A model generated the notes under the pieces. That model was not told the origin of the DNA. It made no database searches and saw nothing but the letters and a program-made list of their open reading frames with translations. From assembly GCA_004296885.1 (NCBI GenBank), contig SCVN01000007.1, positions 248,001 to 312,000 of the forward strand: a stretch of 64,000 bases of DNA. Reading direction: 5' to 3'. This stretch comes from Nitrospirota bacterium. GTDB lineage: Bacteria; Nitrospirota; Nitrospiria; Nitrospirales; Nitrospiraceae. Below, piece by piece: positions 3,009-15,944 of the stretch (its first letter is position 1; each line of letters begins with the position of its first letter). A program made the translations under genes and the position numbers.

Positions 3009-4757
3009 ATGAGCGACCATCGAGACCCGAATGAACGAGATAAAAGGAAGGCCGGAGGAAAAGAACAAGTAACGGGACAGGGCTCCTCCTCGCCGAACGA
3101 TCCCCTGGTCTTGATCGACGACTGTTTAGCCTCCCTGCCGGACGACGATCCACGGCAGAAGATCCTCTACAAGCTCCGTCATCTGATACTGCAGGAAGGG
3201 GCGGCCCACCAGCAACGGGAAGCGGAATTCAAGAAACTCAGCGAGGTGGTAGGCAAGCTGACCGCGCCGGCCAACCGGATCGGCACCTTGTTGGAGCTGC
3301 CGGCGGACGGCTTGGCCCGCATCGTCGTGGGCGGGGCCGAGTATTACACGAATGTGGACCCGCGCGTGGCGCCGGCCGAGCTCAAGATCGGCACGCAAAT
3401 CCTGGTGAACGAGGCCTATGCCCTGATCAAGACGCTCGGCTACGACCGCAATGGTCCGGTGCTGAAGGTTTCGGATACCTTGCCGGACGGGCGCATCCGC
3501 TTCGAGCAGGAGCCGGGTCGCCAGGCCTTGATCCTCCAACGGGGGAGCGACCTGGTCGGGGTGGAGCTCAAGGCCGGCGACGAGGTGCGGATCGACCCGA
3601 GCCACCGCATCGCCATCGAGCGGCTGGAGGACCGGCAAGCAGACCGCCATCTGCTGGACGAAGTGCCGACCGTCACCTGGGAGCAGATCGGCGGGCAGAA
3701 GGCCGCGATCGAGGCCATCCGTAAGGCCATCGAATATCCCCTGCTCCATGCCAAGACCTTCGAGCAGTTCAAGTTCACCCAGCCCAAGGGCTTCCTCCTC
3801 TATGGCCCTCCCGGCTGCGGCAAGACGCTGATCGGCCAGGCGGCAGCGGCGAGCCTGTCCAAACTCGTGGGGGACTCCCAAGAAGCCCAGGCTTCACCGG
3901 ACAGGCCCAAGGTCACAGGCGGGGCTTTTCTCCACGTCAAAGGCCCCGAGATCCTCAACATGTGGCTGGGCGAATCGGAACGGATCGTCCGCGATCTGTT
4001 CGCCCAGGCCCGCGCGCGCCGCAAGGCCGGCTTGCTGCCCTTCATCTTCATCGATGAGGCCGAGTCCATCCTGGGCACCCGCCGGGCCATGCGATCGTTC
4101 AATATCAACAATACGCTCGTGCCGATGTTCTGTTCGGAAATGGACGGCATCGAGTCGCTACGCGACGTGGTGATCATCTTGGCCTCCAACCGGCCGGACC
4201 TGATCGACCCGGCGGTGCTACGGCCGGGACGGATCGACCGCAAGATTAAGGTGGCTCGCCCTGGTCGCGAGGAAGCGGCGGACATCCTGAAGGTCTACCT
4301 GACGGCCGACTTGCCGCTGGACCGGTCGCTGCTGGCTTCGCACGGCGGCAGCCAGGAGGCTGCCTGCCAGGCTCTGCTGACGCAGGCGACGGAGGCGATC
4401 TTCGGCAAGACCGATTCCAACCGGCTCCTCTCCGTCCGCCTCCGCAACGGCCAGCACAAGGTGCTCTACCGGGCCGATCTGGTCAGCGGGGCCATCCTGG
4501 CGTCCATCGTCCAGCGGGCCAAGGAACGGGCCATTGAAAGGGTGATCGGTGCGGCAGGGAGCGAAGCGGGATTGACCAAAGACGATCTGATGATTTCGAT
4601 CGACGCCGAGTTTCGTGAAGGGGAAATGCTCCCGCCGGACGACGCGGCGGAGGAGTGGCTCAAGCTCCTAGACCACCACCCGGAACAAGTGGTGGGGATT
4701 TCCTCGTTCCGCAAGGGCCGGCCGGCGGAAGAGCGGCTGATCGGCCAGATCATTTAA
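3009..4757 (+). CDS. arc: Proteasome-associated AAA ATPase ARC/Mpa
   Basis: 582 residues; hexameric unfoldase that recruits UBact-tagged substrates and feeds them to the 20S core. Residues about 50-90 form a coiled coil, the tag-binding element in Mpa/ARC, followed by OB-type domains. The AAA module has Walker A GPPGCGKT (266-273) and Walker B FIFIDEAES (about 344). The protein ends ERLIGQII. Actinobacterial Mpa ends GQYL, whose penultimate Tyr docks into the alpha ring, so here GQ is kept but Tyr is replaced by Ile. The start at 3009 has GGAGG just upstream. It opens the proteasome operon; dop follows after 83 bp. Cytoplasmic. Confidence 0.95.
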   Translation: MSDHRDPNERDKRKAGGKEQVTGQGSSSPNDPLVLIDDCLASLPDDDPRQKILYKLRHLILQEGAAHQQREAEFKKLSEVVGKLTAPANRIGTLLELPADGLARIVVGGAEYYTNVDPRVAPAELKIGTQILVNEAYALIKTLGYDRNGPVLKVSDTLPDGRIRFEQEPGRQALILQRGSDLVGVELKAGDEVRIDPSHRIAIERLEDRQADRHLLDEVPTVTWEQIGGQKAAIEAIRKAIEYPLLHAKTFEQFKFTQPKGFLLYGPPGCGKTLIGQAAAASLSKLVGDSQEAQASPDRPKVTGGAFLHVKGPEILNMWLGESERIVRDLFAQARARRKAGLLPFIFIDEAESILGTRRAMRSFNINNTLVPMFCSEMDGIESLRDVVIILASNRPDLIDPAVLRPGRIDRKIKVARPGREEAADILKVYLTADLPLDRSLLASHGGSQEAACQALLTQATEAIFGKTDSNRLLSVRLRNGQHKVLYRADLVSGAILASIVQRAKERAIERVIGAAGSEAGLTKDDLMISIDAEFREGEMLPPDDAAEEWLKLLDHHPEQVVGISSFRKGRPAEERLIGQII

Positions 4758-4840
4758 GCGTTGGAAAGTCCGTAAAGTCAGAAAGTTGGCAAGTCGCAGA
4801 CTTTTGACTTTATGACTTTTCGACTTTCACACTTTACGAC
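4758..4840 (+). repeat. GACTTT/AAAGTC heptamer-like spacer between arc and dop
   Basis: The gap holds AAAGTC-type units in its first half and four GACTTT units (gacttttgactttatgac and following) in its second half. The two halves are partly complementary, so the transcript could fold into a hairpin such as AAAGTCA pairing with TGACTTT. It could tune readthrough from arc into dop, or be a neutral repeat tract; the sequence alone cannot separate these. Confidence 0.5.
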
Positions 4841-6367
4841 ATGCGTTTATTTGGCCTCGAAACCGAGTACGGGATCACGCGCGAAGATCTGGACCAGGTT
4901 GATCCGGTCGTGGAGTCCATGGACCTGGTGCGGGCCTACCTGACTGCATCCTTCGAGCGGACCTGGGACTACCAGGGGGAAGACCCCCATGAAGACGCCC
5001 GCGGCTTCCGCGTCTCCGGCTTGCAGCAGGACAAGGAAGAGGACGAGTTCGCCAAACAGGACGCCCACCGGCCCTTTTCCTTCTATGAGATGAAGAGCGA
5101 TCTGGTCCTGCCGAACGGCGCGCGGTTCTACAACGATCATACCCATCCCGAATACTCCACCCCCGAATGCCGGACCCTGCGCGACCTGATCGCCCACGAC
5201 CGGGCCGGCGAGCGGATCGTGCAGCGGGCGGCGGACCGGCGTAACCGGGCCCTGGGCGGCCCGCACGTGCAACTGTACAAGAACAACACCGACTTCCACG
5301 GCCACAGCTACGGCTGCCACGACAACTACCTGCTCCTGCGATCCGTCCCGTTCCCAGCGCTTGTCCAGGGCCTCCTGCCGTTTCTGGTCAGCCGCCAGAT
5401 CATTGCCGGAGCCGGCAAGGTGGGCATCGAGGCTCAGGAGAGCGGATTCCAGCCGGGACGGTATCAACTGTCGCAGCGGGCGGACTTCATGGAAACCGAG
5501 TTGAGCGTGGACACGATGCACAACCGGCCGATCTTGAACACGCGCGACGAGCCCCACGCGGACCGGACCCGCTTCCGGCGGCTCCACCTGATCGTCGGCG
5601 ACGCGAACATGTGCGAGTATGCGACCGCCTTGAAGGTGGGAACGACTCGACTTGTCCTGGACCTGATCGAACTGGGCCAGGCCCCCGCAATACAGCTCGA
5701 CGAGCCTGTGGCCGCCATCAAGGTCCTCTCGCAGGACCCGGACTTGAAAGCGCTGGTGCGCCGAAACGGCGGCGGCACGATCTCCGGGCTGGAGATTCAA
5801 AGCCTCTATCAGCAAGCGGCGCAGCAACACCTTTCCGGCTCGGACGAGGAAACCGACTGGGTGATCCGCGAATGGGGCGAGACCTTGCGGCTGCTACAGA
5901 GCGACCGGAGCCGGCTCGTCGGCCTGCTGGACTGGGTCACCAAGCTCTGGCTCCTGGACGCGTTCATGGAGGCCGAACATGTTGCCTGGGACGACCCCTG
6001 GCTGACGAGCCTGGACCTGGAATATCATAATGTGAATCAGGCACGGGGCCTCTTTCTCGGCCTGGAGGCCGAAGGCAAGACGAGGCGGCTTGCAACCGAG
6101 GTGGAAATCGAGCAAGCTCTGCGCGAAGGGCCGGCGGACACCCGCGGCGGGATCAGGGGACTCTGCGTCCGGCGGTTTCCGGACCAAGTTAAATCGGTAC
6201 AATGGGAACAGGTGCGGTTCAAGGGACTGCTGAAGCCGCATACCCTCGACATGGGCGACCTGTTCGAGCCGGATCGAGTGCAGGAGCTGGGACGGATTCT
6301 GGCCAAGGCCGCCTCTCCGTCGGAGGCCTTGACGGAGTGGAAGGAAAGAAAGGATCGGCAACCATGA
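4841..6367 (+). CDS. dop: Dop, deamidase/deligase for the Pup-like modifier (here UBact)
   Basis: 508 residues of the glutamine-synthetase-like Dop/PafA family. MRLFGLETEYGI carries the metal-binding Glu7 and Glu9. LPNGARFYNDHTHPEYSTPE carries the catalytic-type Asp99. The stretch at about residues 40-85, rich in Asp, Glu and Gln, corresponds to the Dop loop that distinguishes Dop from PafA. Known Dop enzymes deamidate a C-terminal Gln and hydrolyse the tag-lysine isopeptide bond. Because UBact here already ends in Glu, tag removal and recycling is the likely role. The stop overlaps the ubact ATG (ATGA), implying translational coupling. Cytoplasmic. Confidence 0.93.
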   Translation: MRLFGLETEYGITREDLDQVDPVVESMDLVRAYLTASFERTWDYQGEDPHEDARGFRVSGLQQDKEEDEFAKQDAHRPFSFYEMKSDLVLPNGARFYNDHTHPEYSTPECRTLRDLIAHDRAGERIVQRAADRRNRALGGPHVQLYKNNTDFHGHSYGCHDNYLLLRSVPFPALVQGLLPFLVSRQIIAGAGKVGIEAQESGFQPGRYQLSQRADFMETELSVDTMHNRPILNTRDEPHADRTRFRRLHLIVGDANMCEYATALKVGTTRLVLDLIELGQAPAIQLDEPVAAIKVLSQDPDLKALVRRNGGGTISGLEIQSLYQQAAQQHLSGSDEETDWVIREWGETLRLLQSDRSRLVGLLDWVTKLWLLDAFMEAEHVAWDDPWLTSLDLEYHNVNQARGLFLGLEAEGKTRRLATEVEIEQALREGPADTRGGIRGLCVRRFPDQVKSVQWEQVRFKGLLKPHTLDMGDLFEPDRVQELGRILAKAASPSEALTEWKERKDRQP

Positions 6368-6558
6368 ATGAACGTATAGACCTGGAACGGCGCGAGCGGC
6401 CGTTCGACCCGATGCCCAAACCGACCGGCCCGGGCGAAGAGGGCGGTGGCCCGAAGCGGCCAGAGACCGGTTCGCCGGACAAGGACAATTTGCTGAAACG
6501 GATGCGCAAGGTGGACCCGAAGCAGGCGGAGCGGTACCGCCAAAGAACCGGGGAGTAG
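6364..6558 (+). CDS. ubact: UBact, prokaryotic ubiquitin-like protein modifier
   Basis: 64 residues, MNERIDLERRERPFDPMPKP onward, ending ERYRQRTGE. It is highly charged and rich in Gly, Pro, Lys and Arg with almost no hydrophobic core, so intrinsic disorder is expected as in Pup. The C-terminal RTGE fits UBact proteins described from Nitrospirota and other Gram-negative bacteria; the terminal Glu is the residue PafA would join to substrate lysines. ATG 6364 overlaps the dop stop by 4 bp and has AAAGGA about 9 nt upstream. It sits in the place pup occupies in actinobacteria, between dop and prcB. The ending Glu means no Dop deamidation is needed. Confidence 0.93.
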   Translation: MNERIDLERRERPFDPMPKPTGPGEEGGGPKRPETGSPDKDNLLKRMRKVDPKQAERYRQRTGE

Positions 6559-6563
6559 GCGCG

Positions 6564-7337
6564 ATGGGTATGCAGGGTGATTTCTTGCAGCTCCTGAAGG
6601 AGCAGGGCTATCAGATCGGCACCTCGGTCCCAGCCGGCACGGGGGTGGAGATCACGCGCGGCACGACGATCCTGGCCATGAAATACCGGGACGGGGTCCT
6701 GGTGGCCGGCGACCGTCGGGCCACAGCCGGCAACATGGTCATGTACGACCGCACCGACAAAGTTCTGGAACTGGACCGCCACAGCGTGATGGCGATCGCC
6801 GGCGTCCCCGCCACCGCCTACGAGATGGTGCGGGTGCTGGAACATTCCTTCAAATACTACCGCCGCACCCAGCTCCAGGAATTGAGTTTCGAGGGCAAGC
6901 TACGGGCCGTGTCCAAACTGCTGAAGGAAAATGTAGCCGCGGCGCTGGCCGGCACAGGCGCGGTGGCGCCCATCTTCGCCGGCTACGATTTCGAGCAGGG
7001 CTCGGCCAAGATTTTCTTCTACGACATTCTGGGCGCCGAGTTCGAAGGGGTGGAATATGCCGTGTCCGGTTCCGGCTCGCCGACGATCCGCGGCATCCTG
7101 CACTACGTGAACACCTGGGGCGGGCAACCCCTGGCGGCGCTGCCCGAGGAAGAGGCGACGATCCAGGCCTTGCGGCTCCTCACCTGCGCCGCCGAGTTCG
7201 ACTCGGCCACCGGCGGGGTCAACCACGAGGCGAACCTCTATCCGGTCGTGAAACTCATCACCGAGCGCGGCGTCCGGACGGTTCCTGACGGGACGTTGAA
7301 GCCGCTGTTCGAATCCAAGGTGATCCGCCATGTATGA
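6564..7337 (+). CDS. prcB: Proteasome beta subunit PrcB
   Basis: 257 residues; catalytic beta ring of the 20S proteasome. A 33-residue propeptide precedes the autocleavage site ITRG|TTILAMKY, giving Thr34 as the N-terminal nucleophile (Thr1 of the mature chain). Mature Asp17 (VAGDRRAT) and Lys33 (RTDKVLEL) are both present, so the active site is complete. GSGSPT, near the middle of the chain, is the usual beta-subunit motif. The start is 5 bp after the ubact stop; ATG 6570 is an alternative. The 3' end overlaps prcA by 8 bp, consistent with co-translation of the two rings. Confidence 0.95.
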   Translation: MGMQGDFLQLLKEQGYQIGTSVPAGTGVEITRGTTILAMKYRDGVLVAGDRRATAGNMVMYDRTDKVLELDRHSVMAIAGVPATAYEMVRVLEHSFKYYRRTQLQELSFEGKLRAVSKLLKENVAAALAGTGAVAPIFAGYDFEQGSAKIFFYDILGAEFEGVEYAVSGSGSPTIRGILHYVNTWGGQPLAALPEEEATIQALRLLTCAAEFDSATGGVNHEANLYPVVKLITERGVRTVPDGTLKPLFESKVIRHV

Positions 7338-8145
7338 AGAGCCTTATCGCTGGGTGGAGGCGGTCGGCAACCGCCGCCAGTATCTCGACGAGCAGCTCAA
7401 GCAGGGGAGCCCGGTCGTCGCCCTCTCCTATGCGGACGGGATTCTGCTCCTGACCGTCAGCCGCGGCACGCCCAAACTCTACGAAATCTACGACCGCATC
7501 GCGCTGGGCGGCATCGGCCACCCGGCCGATCTGGAAAAGCTCCGTTTCAGCCTGCTCGAAATGGCCCATCTGGAGGGTTTCAACCGCTCGCCGTCCGACG
7601 TGACCGGCGCACGCATGATGAAACTCGGGCTGGCGCCGATCATCAAGCAGGCCTTCGAGGAGATCTTCAAGGCGCCCTTCATCGTCAAGATTCTCCTGGC
7701 AGAGTTGAGCCTGAAACCTGGCAAGGACATGTTCCTAACCATCGACTATGACGGGACGTTCGAAGAGACCTCCGGCTATGCCGTGCTGGCCGCCACCAAG
7801 GCCATCCAGACTCGCATGGTCGCTTATCTGAAGAAGGCGGGACACGCACCGCCCCTGTCGCTGGACGCAGCGTTGGCTCTAACCGCCAAGACCTGGTCCG
7901 TTGGGTCTCTGGCGCAAGCGGCTGAGTCGGAGGCCGATCACAAGGACGAGAAGGAATCCGCCATACCCGTCGCGCAGGAGCCGGACGACGCCCAGCTGCT
8001 GGCGCACTTGCGGGAAACGCTCGCCGACAAGATCCTCGAAGGCGCCGTCCTGGAACGACAGGCTCCCGGCTCGTCGAAATACCGAGCGCTCACGAGAGAG
8101 GAGTTGGCCTTTCTGGTCCCGAAGTCCGCGCAGGCATCTGCCTGA
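7330..8145 (+). CDS. prcA: Proteasome alpha subunit PrcA
   Basis: 271 residues; outer ring of the 20S core that gates substrate entry and binds the ATPase. It begins MYEEPYRWVEAVGNRRQYLD, the region that forms the gating extension and first helix, then the NTN-fold strands SPVVALSYADGILLLT. There is no N-terminal Thr nucleophile, as expected for alpha. After about residue 195 the chain becomes a charged C-terminal extension (AAESEADHKDEKES) and then ends FLVPKSAQASA; similar flexible tails occur in actinobacterial PrcA. It overlaps prcB by 8 bp and is followed by pafA after 15 bp. Confidence 0.93.
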   Translation: MYEEPYRWVEAVGNRRQYLDEQLKQGSPVVALSYADGILLLTVSRGTPKLYEIYDRIALGGIGHPADLEKLRFSLLEMAHLEGFNRSPSDVTGARMMKLGLAPIIKQAFEEIFKAPFIVKILLAELSLKPGKDMFLTIDYDGTFEETSGYAVLAATKAIQTRMVAYLKKAGHAPPLSLDAALALTAKTWSVGSLAQAAESEADHKDEKESAIPVAQEPDDAQLLAHLRETLADKILEGAVLERQAPGSSKYRALTREELAFLVPKSAQASA

Positions 8146-8160
8146 GATCACGCCACTTCC

Positions 8161-9651
8161 ATGCTCAATAGAATCTTTGGCCTGGAAACCGAGTACGGGC
8201 TCCTGATCAACAGGGACCGGCCCGACCATTCTCCCTCCTGGGTCGCCCATCAAATCCGCGACCACCTGTTCCACCGACAGCAGCTCGGGGTGCTGGACCT
8301 GCACCACCGGGGACACGACGAGCCGCCCGGCAACGGGGGCTTCCTCACCAACGCCGGCCGCATCTATCTGGACATGGGGCACCTGGAATATGCCTCGCCG
8401 GAATGCGGGTCTCTCACCGATCTCGTCGCCTCCGACCGGGCCGGCGATCAGCTCATCCAGCAGGCGATCGAGGAAATGGGGCTCGGCGACCAGGTCTCGC
8501 TGATCAAGAACAACATCGACCACGAGACGGATGCCACCTTCGGCTCGCATGAAAACTACCTGGTCACCCGCCGGTTTCCCTTTTCGCGCCGGGGTCTCGG
8601 CCTCCTGGTGCCGTTCCTGATCACGCGACAGATTTTCACCGGGGCCGGACGGATCGGCTCCGCCGATACGCCGGACGGCTGGATTCCGGTGGAACAACTG
8701 CTCATCCGCCGGCCCGGGCTGCGCAACGCGGGGGACCGGCCGTCGCTGCCCTTCCAGATTTCCCAGCGAGCCGACCATATCGTCAATGACTTCTTCGAGT
8801 GGGTCCAGCAGAACCGAGCCATCGTGAACACGCGCGACGAGCCCCTGGCCGACCCGAACCAATTCCGCCGCATCCACCTCTTATTGGGCGATTCCAACCT
8901 GGCGGAAACGGCGACCGCCTTGAAGCTGGGGACGACCGGGTTGGTGCTGCAACTGATCGAGGAGGGCCATGCGCCGACCGGCTTCGACTTCGAGGACCCG
9001 GTGGAGACGCTGAAAGAGATTTCCCGGGATCAGGACTTCACCTGGCTGGTGGCCCTACGCTCGGGCAAAACCATCTCGGCGATCGACATCCAGGAGCAAT
9101 TCCTCGACGCAGCCAGAAAACAGTACCGGGGACAGGACGAGGAAACTGATTGGGTGCTGGACCAGTGGGAAGCGGTCCTCACGGACTTGCGCGGCGACTA
9201 CCGCAAGCTGGTCGGCCGCGTGGACTGGGCATCGAAGCTCTGGCTCCTGGAATCGTTCCGGGAGGCAGAGAAGGTGAAATGGAACGATCCCTGGCTGAAA
9301 AGCCTGGACTTGGAGTATCACAATCTTCATCCGGACAAGGGGCTCTACTTCGGCCTGCTGGAAGAAGGGAAGGTCCCCCGCGTGACCACCGACCAGGCGG
9401 TAGCCCTGGCCCAGAAGCAGCCGCCCCGGAACACCAGAGCCTTCGGACGAGGGGAGTTGGTCCGGCACCTGCTGGACCATGGCGTGCCGGAATCGGACGA
9501 ACCGGAGGACGAGACACAGGGCCGTCAGCGGTTTATCCCGGACTACGTGATCAACTGGTCTATCTTTCAAGTGCGCGGACGTCCACCTTTTCCGATGCCG
9601 GACCCTTTCAAAACTTATGCGCAGGAAGTCCGCAGCCATTTGTCCGGCTAA
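8161..9651 (+). CDS. pafA: PafA, ligase joining UBact to substrate lysines
   Basis: 496 residues, same glutamine-synthetase-like fold as Dop. MLNRIFGLETEYGL supplies Glu9 and Glu11 for metal/ATP binding, and FLTNAGRIYLDMGHLEYASPE supplies Asp71, the equivalent of the catalytic Asp of PafA. The long acidic Dop loop is absent, which separates ligase from deligase. Known PafA phosphorylates the tag's terminal Glu and transfers it to a lysine. The other conserved blocks (NTRDEPLADPNQFRRIH, LGDSNLAETATALKLG) are also in Dop at 4841. It is the last core gene of the operon, 15 bp after prcA. Confidence 0.93.
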   Translation: MLNRIFGLETEYGLLINRDRPDHSPSWVAHQIRDHLFHRQQLGVLDLHHRGHDEPPGNGGFLTNAGRIYLDMGHLEYASPECGSLTDLVASDRAGDQLIQQAIEEMGLGDQVSLIKNNIDHETDATFGSHENYLVTRRFPFSRRGLGLLVPFLITRQIFTGAGRIGSADTPDGWIPVEQLLIRRPGLRNAGDRPSLPFQISQRADHIVNDFFEWVQQNRAIVNTRDEPLADPNQFRRIHLLLGDSNLAETATALKLGTTGLVLQLIEEGHAPTGFDFEDPVETLKEISRDQDFTWLVALRSGKTISAIDIQEQFLDAARKQYRGQDEETDWVLDQWEAVLTDLRGDYRKLVGRVDWASKLWLLESFREAEKVKWNDPWLKSLDLEYHNLHPDKGLYFGLLEEGKVPRVTTDQAVALAQKQPPRNTRAFGRGELVRHLLDHGVPESDEPEDETQGRQRFIPDYVINWSIFQVRGRPPFPMPDPFKTYAQEVRSHLSG

Positions 9652-13469: not shown

Positions 13470-13574
13470 GCCATACACCGATCGGCCTATTGCCGGTTCA
13501 GATTGGCCTTGCCATTATCATTCCTTAAAACTAGACTGTTCTCCGATCTATGTAGATTCTTCCTCAATCGATCG

Positions 13575-15944
13575 ATGTCCATAGCAAAGCTTCCATTCCT
13601 CATTCTAATCCTGCTTTCAGTCACGTCATGCGCACGTGTTATGGATGAAATGATGGCCCTAAATGCCGGACCTCGTCGGGCATCAAGCGACATGAACGAA
13701 CAGAGCAGGAAGTTGGGTCAACTGACAGAAGGTCGCTACGAGCAGCTTGTCGAGGAGTTAGAGGGCAGGTATCCGGATCTATCTTCTGCATACATGGACG
13801 ATCTTGGGCCGTTGTGCAAAGCCTACAGCGAATTAAAGAAATATAACAGACTGTTCACTTGCTTGGATGAACTTGAGCGTAAGACAAACAAGTACCGCAA
13901 CGAAGACTATCCATTGCTCGTCGAGGAATATGAAATTGCCTTCCTTCGAGCGCAAGCCTTATTGGACATTGGAGATTACCAGAATGCCCTTCCCCATGCG
14001 CAACACGCCTTCGGGCTCTTGAATAAGAACGAAGTGAAAGAAGCCGAGTTTCAGCATGGGCGTCATGCGACTCTGACTTTGCTTGGCCTAGCTCAAGCCC
14101 TGAGCGGGAATCGTCAGGAGGCGCTTGCGAGCGCACGCCGCATTGAAAGTAACGGCGTCACGTCGAAAGATTCCATGGTGCAGGAAGAAGAAGAGGCTTT
14201 GGAGGATTTGTCTCGTATCCCTATTTACCTTGTCCTGCAAGACGACGAGAAATGTCTCCCTCTTATGCCGAAGGCTCAGCGAGCGGTGAACCGGTGGGAA
14301 GCTCAGGGAGCCAGGTGGCTGAAAAGGGGCTTGTACAATTATTTCTTTGGTGGTGTCATCAGGGGCCGTTATCTCATCAGCAAATGTTTCTTCGAAAACA
14401 AAAGGTTCGCCGAGGCCAAGGCCGCATACGATAAACTCTTAAGCTACCCCCAAATTGCCAATCAAGGTGGTCTGTATAGGATCATTCTCTTTGACCGAGG
14501 ACGAATTGCCGAAGCCGAAGGAGACCGCAAGATGGCCCAAACTTATTATCAGCGGGCCATCGAAGTCATCGAACAGCAGCGCTCCACCATCAACACTGAA
14601 GCCAGCCGTATCGGATTCGTGGGAGACAAGCAGCAGGTTTATCATCTCTTGATATCCGACCTAATCGCAGAAGGCCGGCCCGCTCAAGCCTTTGAATACG
14701 TCGAGCGCGCCAAGGCACGAGCCTTGGTGGATATTCTGGCCTCCAAACAGGACTTCGCCGCTGCTGGATCAGCCTCTCAGCAGATCGTCTCGCTTGTGAC
14801 TGAAATAGACCAGGCCGATCAAGACTTGCGCGTTCCTGTCTCGTCATCCGAGGAATCCCGCCGCCGCAGCGCACGGGGCGTCCAGGTAAAAGCCAATCTG
14901 CGAGCTGCCGCTCCAGAGTTGGCCTCGCTGGTCATGGTGACGGAAACGGCCAGCGGCGCGGTTCAAGCCCTACTGGAGCCGGATGAGACGCTGCTCGAAT
15001 ATTACTATCATGACGACGACCTCTATGCCTTTGTAGTGACTCGCGAGCGGGTCCAGGCCGTCAAGCTGCCAGGCAAGGGCCTGCTCGCCGACGTGGAAGA
15101 GTTTCGGAAATCACTGGAGGACCCGAAATCCGATGAGACAAAAGCGCTCTCACAAAAACTCTATGGCCGATTGGTTCAGCCCATTGCCGGGCAGCTCGCG
15201 ACAAAGCGCTTGCTGATCGTCGGCCATGGTATTCTGCATTATTTGCCCTTCGCCGCCTTGTCGGATGACGCCGGTTACCTGGCGGACCGATACAGTTTGA
15301 GGCTCCTGCCCAGCGCGAGCGTGCTACAGTTTCTCAAGGGACGGCAAGCTCAAAAGGGCGGCAGTCTGCTGGCCTTCGGCAATCCCGATCTCGGCGACCG
15401 GCGGCTGGATCTCAAATTTGCCGAGGACGAAGTGCAGACCATTGCCAGAGCCTTTCCCAACACCAAGGTTCTCCTCCGTCAGGACGCCACCAAGAACGCC
15501 TTCAAGACCCTTGGCCCGCAGTTTACTTATCTTCATCTGGCCACCCACGGAAAATTCGATCCGGATGCACCGTTGAAGTCGGGACTGTTCTTGGCCGGTG
15601 ATGCGCAAGGCGAGGGTTTTCTGAGCCTGGGCGATCTCTATTCGATGCGGCTGAACGCCGAATTGGTGACCTTGAGCGCCTGCGAGACCGGTCTGGGCAA
15701 GGTCAGCAACGGGGACGATGTGGTGGGATTAACGCGCGGGTTTCTCTATGCCGGGAGCAATTCCATCGTGGCAAGTCTCTGGGAAGTTGACGACCTGGCA
15801 ACCTCCCTCTTGATGACCGAGTTCTACGCCCACCTCAAGAAGGGCGATAAGCAGGAAGCCCTGCGCCAAGCACAACTGGCAACCAAGGCCAAGTATCCGC
15901 ATCCCTACTACTGGGCCGCCTTCCAACTCACCGGATTGCCGTAG
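13575..15944 (+). CDS. Lipid-anchored TPR-CHAT protease-like protein
   Basis: 789 residues. Residues 1-20 (MSIAKLPFLILILLSVTSCA) look like a lipoprotein signal with Cys19. Residues about 40-420 are helical repeats of TPR type (YYQRAIEVIEQQRS, AFEYVERAKARALVDIL). The last 300 residues are a CHAT (caspase-like) domain with catalytic His658 in LATHG and Cys703 in SACETGLG, so the dyad is intact. CHAT domains are cysteine proteases related to separase and caspases. The 5' half is visibly richer in A+T and uses rarer codons than its neighbours, while the CHAT part looks native. The true substrate is unknown. Confidence 0.8.
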   Translation: MSIAKLPFLILILLSVTSCARVMDEMMALNAGPRRASSDMNEQSRKLGQLTEGRYEQLVEELEGRYPDLSSAYMDDLGPLCKAYSELKKYNRLFTCLDELERKTNKYRNEDYPLLVEEYEIAFLRAQALLDIGDYQNALPHAQHAFGLLNKNEVKEAEFQHGRHATLTLLGLAQALSGNRQEALASARRIESNGVTSKDSMVQEEEEALEDLSRIPIYLVLQDDEKCLPLMPKAQRAVNRWEAQGARWLKRGLYNYFFGGVIRGRYLISKCFFENKRFAEAKAAYDKLLSYPQIANQGGLYRIILFDRGRIAEAEGDRKMAQTYYQRAIEVIEQQRSTINTEASRIGFVGDKQQVYHLLISDLIAEGRPAQAFEYVERAKARALVDILASKQDFAAAGSASQQIVSLVTEIDQADQDLRVPVSSSEESRRRSARGVQVKANLRAAAPELASLVMVTETASGAVQALLEPDETLLEYYYHDDDLYAFVVTRERVQAVKLPGKGLLADVEEFRKSLEDPKSDETKALSQKLYGRLVQPIAGQLATKRLLIVGHGILHYLPFAALSDDAGYLADRYSLRLLPSASVLQFLKGRQAQKGGSLLAFGNPDLGDRRLDLKFAEDEVQTIARAFPNTKVLLRQDATKNAFKTLGPQFTYLHLATHGKFDPDAPLKSGLFLAGDAQGEGFLSLGDLYSMRLNAELVTLSACETGLGKVSNGDDVVGLTRGFLYAGSNSIVASLWEVDDLATSLLMTEFYAHLKKGDKQEALRQAQLATKAKYPHPYYWAAFQLTGLP

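Follow-up and report, generated by a model that had tools for sequence, protein, structure and literature searches.

A UBact-proteasome operon in a Nitrospirota genome that also encodes a Pup-proteasome system

The window analysed here is a 64,000-nucleotide stretch of the genome of a Nitrospirota bacterium (GenBank assembly GCA_004296885.1, contig SCVN01000007.1, positions 248,001 to 312,000 of the forward strand). Near its start lie the genes arc, dop, ubact, prcB, prcA and pafA, which specify an unfoldase, a deconjugase, the small protein tag UBact, both 20S subunits and a predicted ligase. We consider it very likely that they make up a functional UBact-proteasome system such as has already been published, and that the genome holds two complete systems of tag and proteasome, this one and another that uses Pup. 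UBact has been little studied experimentally, and a genome with both tags provides an internal comparison in which the same cytoplasm and the same substrates meet two tags. From the genes we infer function (conjugation, degradation and docking of the unfoldase through an Ile-Ile tail) and orthogonality (a lack of crosstalk between the systems).

Results

The UBact operon is complete and maintained

An earlier note on this DNA, made from the letters alone, had described a UBact-proteasome operon, complete and in a Gram-negative-type genome, with six genes in the order arc-dop-ubact-prcB-prcA-pafA on one strand. All six are intact on the forward strand at 3009-9651 (Table 1), and profiles, operon order and trees agree with that description. 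The subunit-by-subunit profile search that it had suggested as a check named every part through Pfam or NCBIfam at scores well beyond chance, with UBact above both curated cut-offs (27.8 bits for PF20513 and 35 bits for NF033388). The catalytic residues are also as it had listed them: Thr34 of PrcB, which follows a propeptide of 33 residues and is Thr1 of the mature subunit, Asp17 and Lys33 of mature PrcB, Asp99 of Dop and Asp71 of PafA. None of the 64 aligned UBact-type beta subunits departs from Thr1, Asp17 and Lys33, and every one of the 115 aligned ligase-family sequences has the catalytic Asp.

Other expected features are present too. In the ARC unfoldase both proteasomal-ATPase OB domains and the AAA domain were matched in the Pfam search, and the protein has a short coiled coil, the Walker A motif GPPGCGKT, the pore loop MWLG and the C-terminus GQII. 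Dop carries the Dop-loop (WDYQGEDPHEDARGF...), PrcA has an N-terminal H0 helix and a pocket lysine at Lys49, and the PafA-type protein is without the Dop-loop and has an alpha-loop of its own (SQRADHIVNDFFEWVQ).

The operon is maintained under purifying selection. The ratio of nonsynonymous to synonymous substitution rates (dN/dS) against two sister species from the same genus is 0.05-0.12 for all six genes and 0.05-0.09 for ubact itself. Both sister species have the same operon with protein identities of 88-98%, and the gene order is kept in the operons of relatives. Within the published UBact family the window operon is in no way unusual.

Table 1. Features of the two tag-proteasome systems; positions without a contig name refer to the window.
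Feature	Position	Strand	Profile matches and remarks
ARC/Mpa-type AAA unfoldase, UBact type, 582 aa	3009-4757	+	PF00004, PF17758, PF16450; TIGR03689 434.6 bits
arc-dop spacer, 83 nt	4758-4840		with palindromic repeat
Dop-type deconjugase, UBact type, 508 aa	4841-6367	+	PF03136 (Pup_ligase) 550.6 bits; TIGR03688 460 versus TIGR03686 365.6 bits
UBact tag, 64 aa, C-terminus RQRTGE	6364-6558	+	PF20513 77.6 bits; NF033388 81.3 bits
20S proteasome beta subunit PrcB, 257 aa	6564-7337	+	PF00227 94.2 bits; TIGR03690 165.3 bits
20S proteasome alpha subunit PrcA, 271 aa	7330-8145	+	PF00227 23.8 bits; TIGR03691 68.3 bits
PafA-type UBact ligase (predicted), 496 aa	8161-9651	+	PF03136 438.7 bits
Second proteasome operon, arc-dop-prcB-prcA-pafA, no tag gene	C15:313,419-319,759 (L013 9420-15760)	-	whole-genome profile search
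Pup gene, ends ...VQKGGE	C20:57,174-57,371 (L011 9675-9872)		PF05639; flanks: hppA and recJ/relA

A second, Pup-type system is present in the same genome

Searching the whole genome gave four Pup_ligase genes and two genes for proteasomal ATPases. There were four genes for 20S subunits and a single gene each for UBact and Pup; contig C1 carries another member of the proteasome family, which looks like HslV. The parts outside the window make up a second operon on contig C15 and the sole Pup gene of the genome on contig C20, no second tag gene being found beside the C15 operon. The ARC, Dop, PafA, PrcB and PrcA of this system belong to the Pup clade, the ARC tail is GHYF and the tag is a true Pup with a GGE end. 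PF05639, searched against the whole genome, matches the C20 gene only and not the window tag, which ends in TGE. Against the two sister species, dN/dS is 0.01-0.08 for the five genes of the Pup operon. The second system is not contamination, since the genome (23 contigs) has a completeness of 100% and a contamination of 0.16%, and the sister genomes repeat the pattern. The earlier note had missed this second system, which lies outside the window. Probably, then, one cell runs UBact and Pup systems in parallel, which raises, besides the matter of UBact targets, the question of why it keeps two and how they are kept apart.

In all eight same-family Pup loci examined the Pup gene lies between hppA and recJ (recJ is off the end of one), whereas in families f5, f7, f9, f11 and f12 it lies between dop and prcB. 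The tag gene has therefore probably moved within the Nitrospira lineage.

Both systems are widespread in the class

The overlap of the two systems was tallied by hand from two tables for 247 genomes sampled from the class. UBact was present in 170 and Pup in 229; 159 had both, 70 Pup only, 11 UBact only and 7 neither. Four ligase-family genes were found in each of 22 genomes chosen across the class, and both operons in 20/20 relatives that were fetched, one of which (G004) is without the UBact 20S genes. For G157 the UBact arc was not recovered within the stretch fetched. A scan of GTDB with the UBact ligase alignment gave UBact-type loci in Nitrospira, Nitrospinota, Latescibacterota, Poribacteria, Verrucomicrobiota and one metagenome-assembled genome (MAG) of Gemmatimonadaceae, and Pup-type loci in Actinomycetota, Rokubacteria, Poribacteria and Nitrospirota.

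The UBact proteins of relatives end in RTGE or RTGQ. As the window tag ends in Glu no deamidation would be needed, while the RTGQ tags would need it because they end in Gln, as in actinobacterial PupQ.

Two loci depart from the usual arrangement. In Nitrospinaceae NORP306 (L123, 5196-11561) the UBact operon encodes two beta subunits in the order arc-dop-prcB1-prcA-ubact-prcB2-pafA, both with a PQGTT start site, and a mixed or alternative beta ring is possible. In JACQBY010000052.1 (G015:C69; L119/L074) an orphan dop-ubact pair has no arc, prcBA or pafA alongside, a reduced or rearranged UBact locus; it belongs to the same family (f7) as G004.

UBact-type and Pup-type parts form separate clades

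In a tree of 115 ligase-family proteins, Dop and PafA of the UBact type (U) and of the Pup type (P) form four separate clades with support of 98-100% in the Shimodaira-Hasegawa-like approximate likelihood-ratio test (SH-aLRT). The window genes fall within PAFA_U (100%) and DOP_U (98%). ARC is split into U and P at 100%, PrcB of the window lies inside a PRCB_U clade with 100% support, and PRCA_P occupies one side of its tree at 100%. No gene on the wrong side, U among P or the reverse, was found in the sampled operons. Separate origins of the two ligases were considered and the claim was dropped: in the quick tree PAFA_U groups with DOP_U, and PAFA_P with DOP_P (90%), but joint ligases were not rejected by the approximately unbiased test (p-AU 0.242).

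Assignment of PrcA and the PafA-type protein

PrcA is the part most weakly recognised by sequence, with a Pfam score barely above the cut-off (23.8 against 22.4 bits). Its AlphaFold model has a predicted local distance difference test score (pLDDT) of 90.8 and, compared with 20S structures by Foldseek, matches those of M. tuberculosis and Rhodococcus (E 7e-16), the alpha chains 1q5q_A, 3h6f and 3hf9 among them. Structure prediction thus confirms PrcA as a 20S alpha subunit. A C-terminal extension had been considered as a U-type feature of PrcA and was dropped, as the additional residues seem to be inserted internally, ahead of the last strand.

The predicted model of the PafA-type protein has the fold of PafA and Dop, the best Foldseek match being the Pup-PafA complex 4bjr (E 1.2e-33). 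PafA_U shares two ligase-type residues with PafA and not with Dop, Gly at aligned column 161 and His at column 303, and its conserved alpha-loop has Leu in place of the otherwise invariant His of DEPHAD. We call it a ligase and not a deconjugase because of the missing Dop-loop, its place in the operon and the two ligase-type residues. From these sequence features the roles of the PafA-type protein as ligase partner and of the Dop-type protein as deconjugase are well supported, but not proven.

The two ARC types differ at the C-terminus and in the pore loop

Complete UBact-type ARC sequences, drawn from Nitrospirota, Nitrospinota, Latescibacterota, Poribacteria and Verrucomicrobiota, end in [IV][IV] in 55 of 57 cases (II 33, VI 16, VV 4, IV 2), the residues before this pair being variable. 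All 49 Pup-type ARCs end in Y[LF], as GQYL, GHYL, GHYF or GAYL. The penultimate Tyr was sought at the C-terminus of the window ARC and is absent. The pore loop differs too, with MW[LV]G in 57/57 UBact-type and K[YF]VG in 48/48 Pup-type sequences. On the side of the core, the alpha pocket lysine is invariant in both U-type (65/65) and P-type (53/53) PrcA; in the window it is Lys49, which we take to be the equivalent of Lys52 of M. tuberculosis. An invariant lysine is consistent with docking of a C-terminal carboxylate in both types. In mycobacteria the GQYL tail is required for opening of the 20S gate (PMC8142254). We propose, from this pattern of conservation, that the Ile/Val-Ile/Val tail may be the UBact counterpart of GQYL docking.

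Both U-type exceptions are explained. In L077 a frameshift has occurred and ...EKRVI is found in the next frame. In G004 (L043, contig C37) the ARC frame reads ...AAA AAC TGA ATC ATT TAA, with a stop directly before the Ile-Ile codons. Between ubact and pafA of G004 there is one frame in which the start of PrcB (...GTTIFSFKYKDGV) is joined to the end of PrcA (...LEVAVLDKSQPGTSKYR), the remnant of an in-frame deletion, and the only proteasome-family genes that a search of this whole genome gave were the Pup-type 20S pair and one other. The loss of the tail matches the docking proposal, since with its core gone the tail would be free to decay.

Spacers and neighbouring genes

The earlier note had given the spacing in the operon as ATGA or a few bases. 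That holds for the four junctions from dop to pafA, where the ubact start lies on the dop stop (ATGA), 5 nt separate ubact from prcB, prcB and prcA overlap by 8 nt and prcA and pafA are 15 nt apart, but not for the wider gap between arc and dop. The latter contains, at 4764-4840, an AAAGTC-rich palindromic repeat with 25-nt arms that are 80% complementary. A conserved regulatory role for this hairpin was rejected because the repeat is dispersed, with 43 matches, full or partial, in this genome, and is missing in the sister species, where arc and dop are 2 nt apart. Scanning for promoters and terminators gave no signal above shuffled expectation.

In the sister genomes G100 and G131 ubact and prcB lie further apart by a few hundred bases, and in G100 this interval has a GIY-YIG endonuclease gene that is absent from the window (L028, 4398-4688). 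At another locus (L039, G085:C3) about 1.2 kb separates dop from prcB, with ubact near the end of that interval. Around the operon, the window encodes a stand-alone protein, whose Lon C-terminal (S16) protease-like domain scores 32.6 bits, at 568-1452 on the reverse strand, about 1.6 kb upstream, and an 813-aa TPR-CHAT protein (CHAT domain 243 bits) at 13503-15944 on the forward strand.

Discussion

The gene set suggests how the window system may work. The PafA-type ligase would phosphorylate the C-terminal Glu of UBact and join the tag to lysines of target proteins, and Dop would take it off again. A hexamer of ARC would capture UBact and thread the target through its MWLG pore loop, docking onto its own PrcA/PrcB core by a free C-terminal Ile-Ile in place of the Gly-Gln-Tyr-Leu-type tail of the Pup-type ARC. 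Cleavage would take place at the Thr1 site of PrcB. The Pup system, made up of the C15 operon and the C20 pup gene, would run in parallel with its own parts.

If so, Nitrospira-type bacteria may run two insulated channels from tag to proteasome in one cytoplasm, each with a tag, ligase, deconjugase, unfoldase and 20S core of its own, the docking code of the tails ([IV][IV] against Tyr-Leu/Phe) separating them. We put this forward tentatively, judging its chances to be a little short of even. The two tails are a possible basis for two tagging systems that do not interfere with one another, and the signature makes a specific and cheap prediction, a two-residue docking motif by which bacterial proteasome ATPases choose their core.

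Several points weigh against the proposed working of the two systems. The PRCA_U side of the tree is supported at 55% and PRCB_P is not one clade; by sequence, PrcA bears only a weak resemblance to known alpha subunits, and PafA_U is about equally close to Dop and PafA. The tail-loss case is a single MAG (G004). Nor does the conservation of separate parts prove that each system keeps its tag and its 20S core to itself.

This last point bears on the possibility that the systems are not insulated, so that UBact- and Pup-tagged proteins would use 20S cores or ATPases in common, with added capacity as the main effect of the duplication. Such sharing seems to us unlikely, though it has to be taken seriously. 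It would fit with a pocket lysine in both core types, with tags that both end in Gly-Glu or Gly-Gln, and with the retention of arc, dop, ubact and pafA in G004 after the loss of the UBact 20S genes, where the Pup-type 20S is intact. The same genome also speaks for separation, however, as its UBact-type ARC lost the tail along with its own core and kept no Tyr tail for the other. Furthermore, the docking tails differ without overlap, and ARC, Dop, PafA and PrcB sort to the U and P sides with no exchange among the sampled genomes.

UBact might instead mainly tag without degrading, for signalling, storage or inactivation, like pupylation in bacteria that lack a proteasome. The presence of UBact without its own 20S genes in G004 and the dop-ubact pair of JACQBY010000052.1 would be expected on this explanation, but both are reduced loci from MAGs of a single family and may be decaying, whereas in most loci arc and the two 20S genes are retained under purifying selection and the catalytic Thr is intact; we regard this explanation as improbable. 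The idea that the operon is a relic in this assembly, left by decay or brought in by contamination, can be dismissed: a genome in 23 contigs could in principle include misassigned ones, but the sister species' operons, with their high protein identity and a dN/dS of about 0.1, refute it, and the completeness and contamination values and a GC content similar to that of the window speak against it too.

It would seem, then, that a degradative UBact system beside a separate Pup system accounts best for the observations. No earlier report of the class-wide coexistence, of the phylogenetic separation of most parts into U and P or of the difference in the ARC tail was found in the literature searched, most subscription papers lying outside that search. 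We regard the ARC tail as the most useful new point; the docking proposal attached to it is testable.

Comparison with known systems

That UBact systems were already known, as the earlier note had said, is borne out by the 2017 publication that other papers cite; the system was reportedly described there by Lehmann, Udasin, Livneh and Ciechanover, in BBRC 483:946. The window operon shares with it the PF20513/NF033388 tag family, the arc-dop-ubact-prcB-prcA-pafA gene set and a host from Gram-negative-type phyla, and there is no structural difference. What is added here is the coexisting full Pup system, the signatures of the ARC tail and pore loop, and the occurrence of both RTGE and RTGQ ends among relatives.

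Pup systems in Nitrospirae are well known from the literature. Leptospirillum ferrooxidans was reported to have two very different complete copies, L1 and L2, the Pup of L2 being without GGE (Barandun et al. 2012, PMC3511204), and for this reason coexistence is not new in principle. Both cases concern two complete and very divergent systems in one Nitrospirae genome; the earlier one was a single species described before UBact was named, whereas here the pairing is seen in 159/247 sampled Nitrospiria-type genomes.

With the actinobacterial Pup system (Mpa/ARC, Dop, Pup, PrcB, PrcA and PafA) the window operon has homologous parts, gene order and catalytic residues in common. It differs in a tag that falls outside PF05639 and ends in RTGE in place of GGE, in an ARC of the type with an [IV][IV] tail and an MW[LV]G pore loop in place of GQYL/GHYL/GHYF and K[YF]VG, and in the separate clades formed by UBact-type ARC, Dop, PafA and PrcB.

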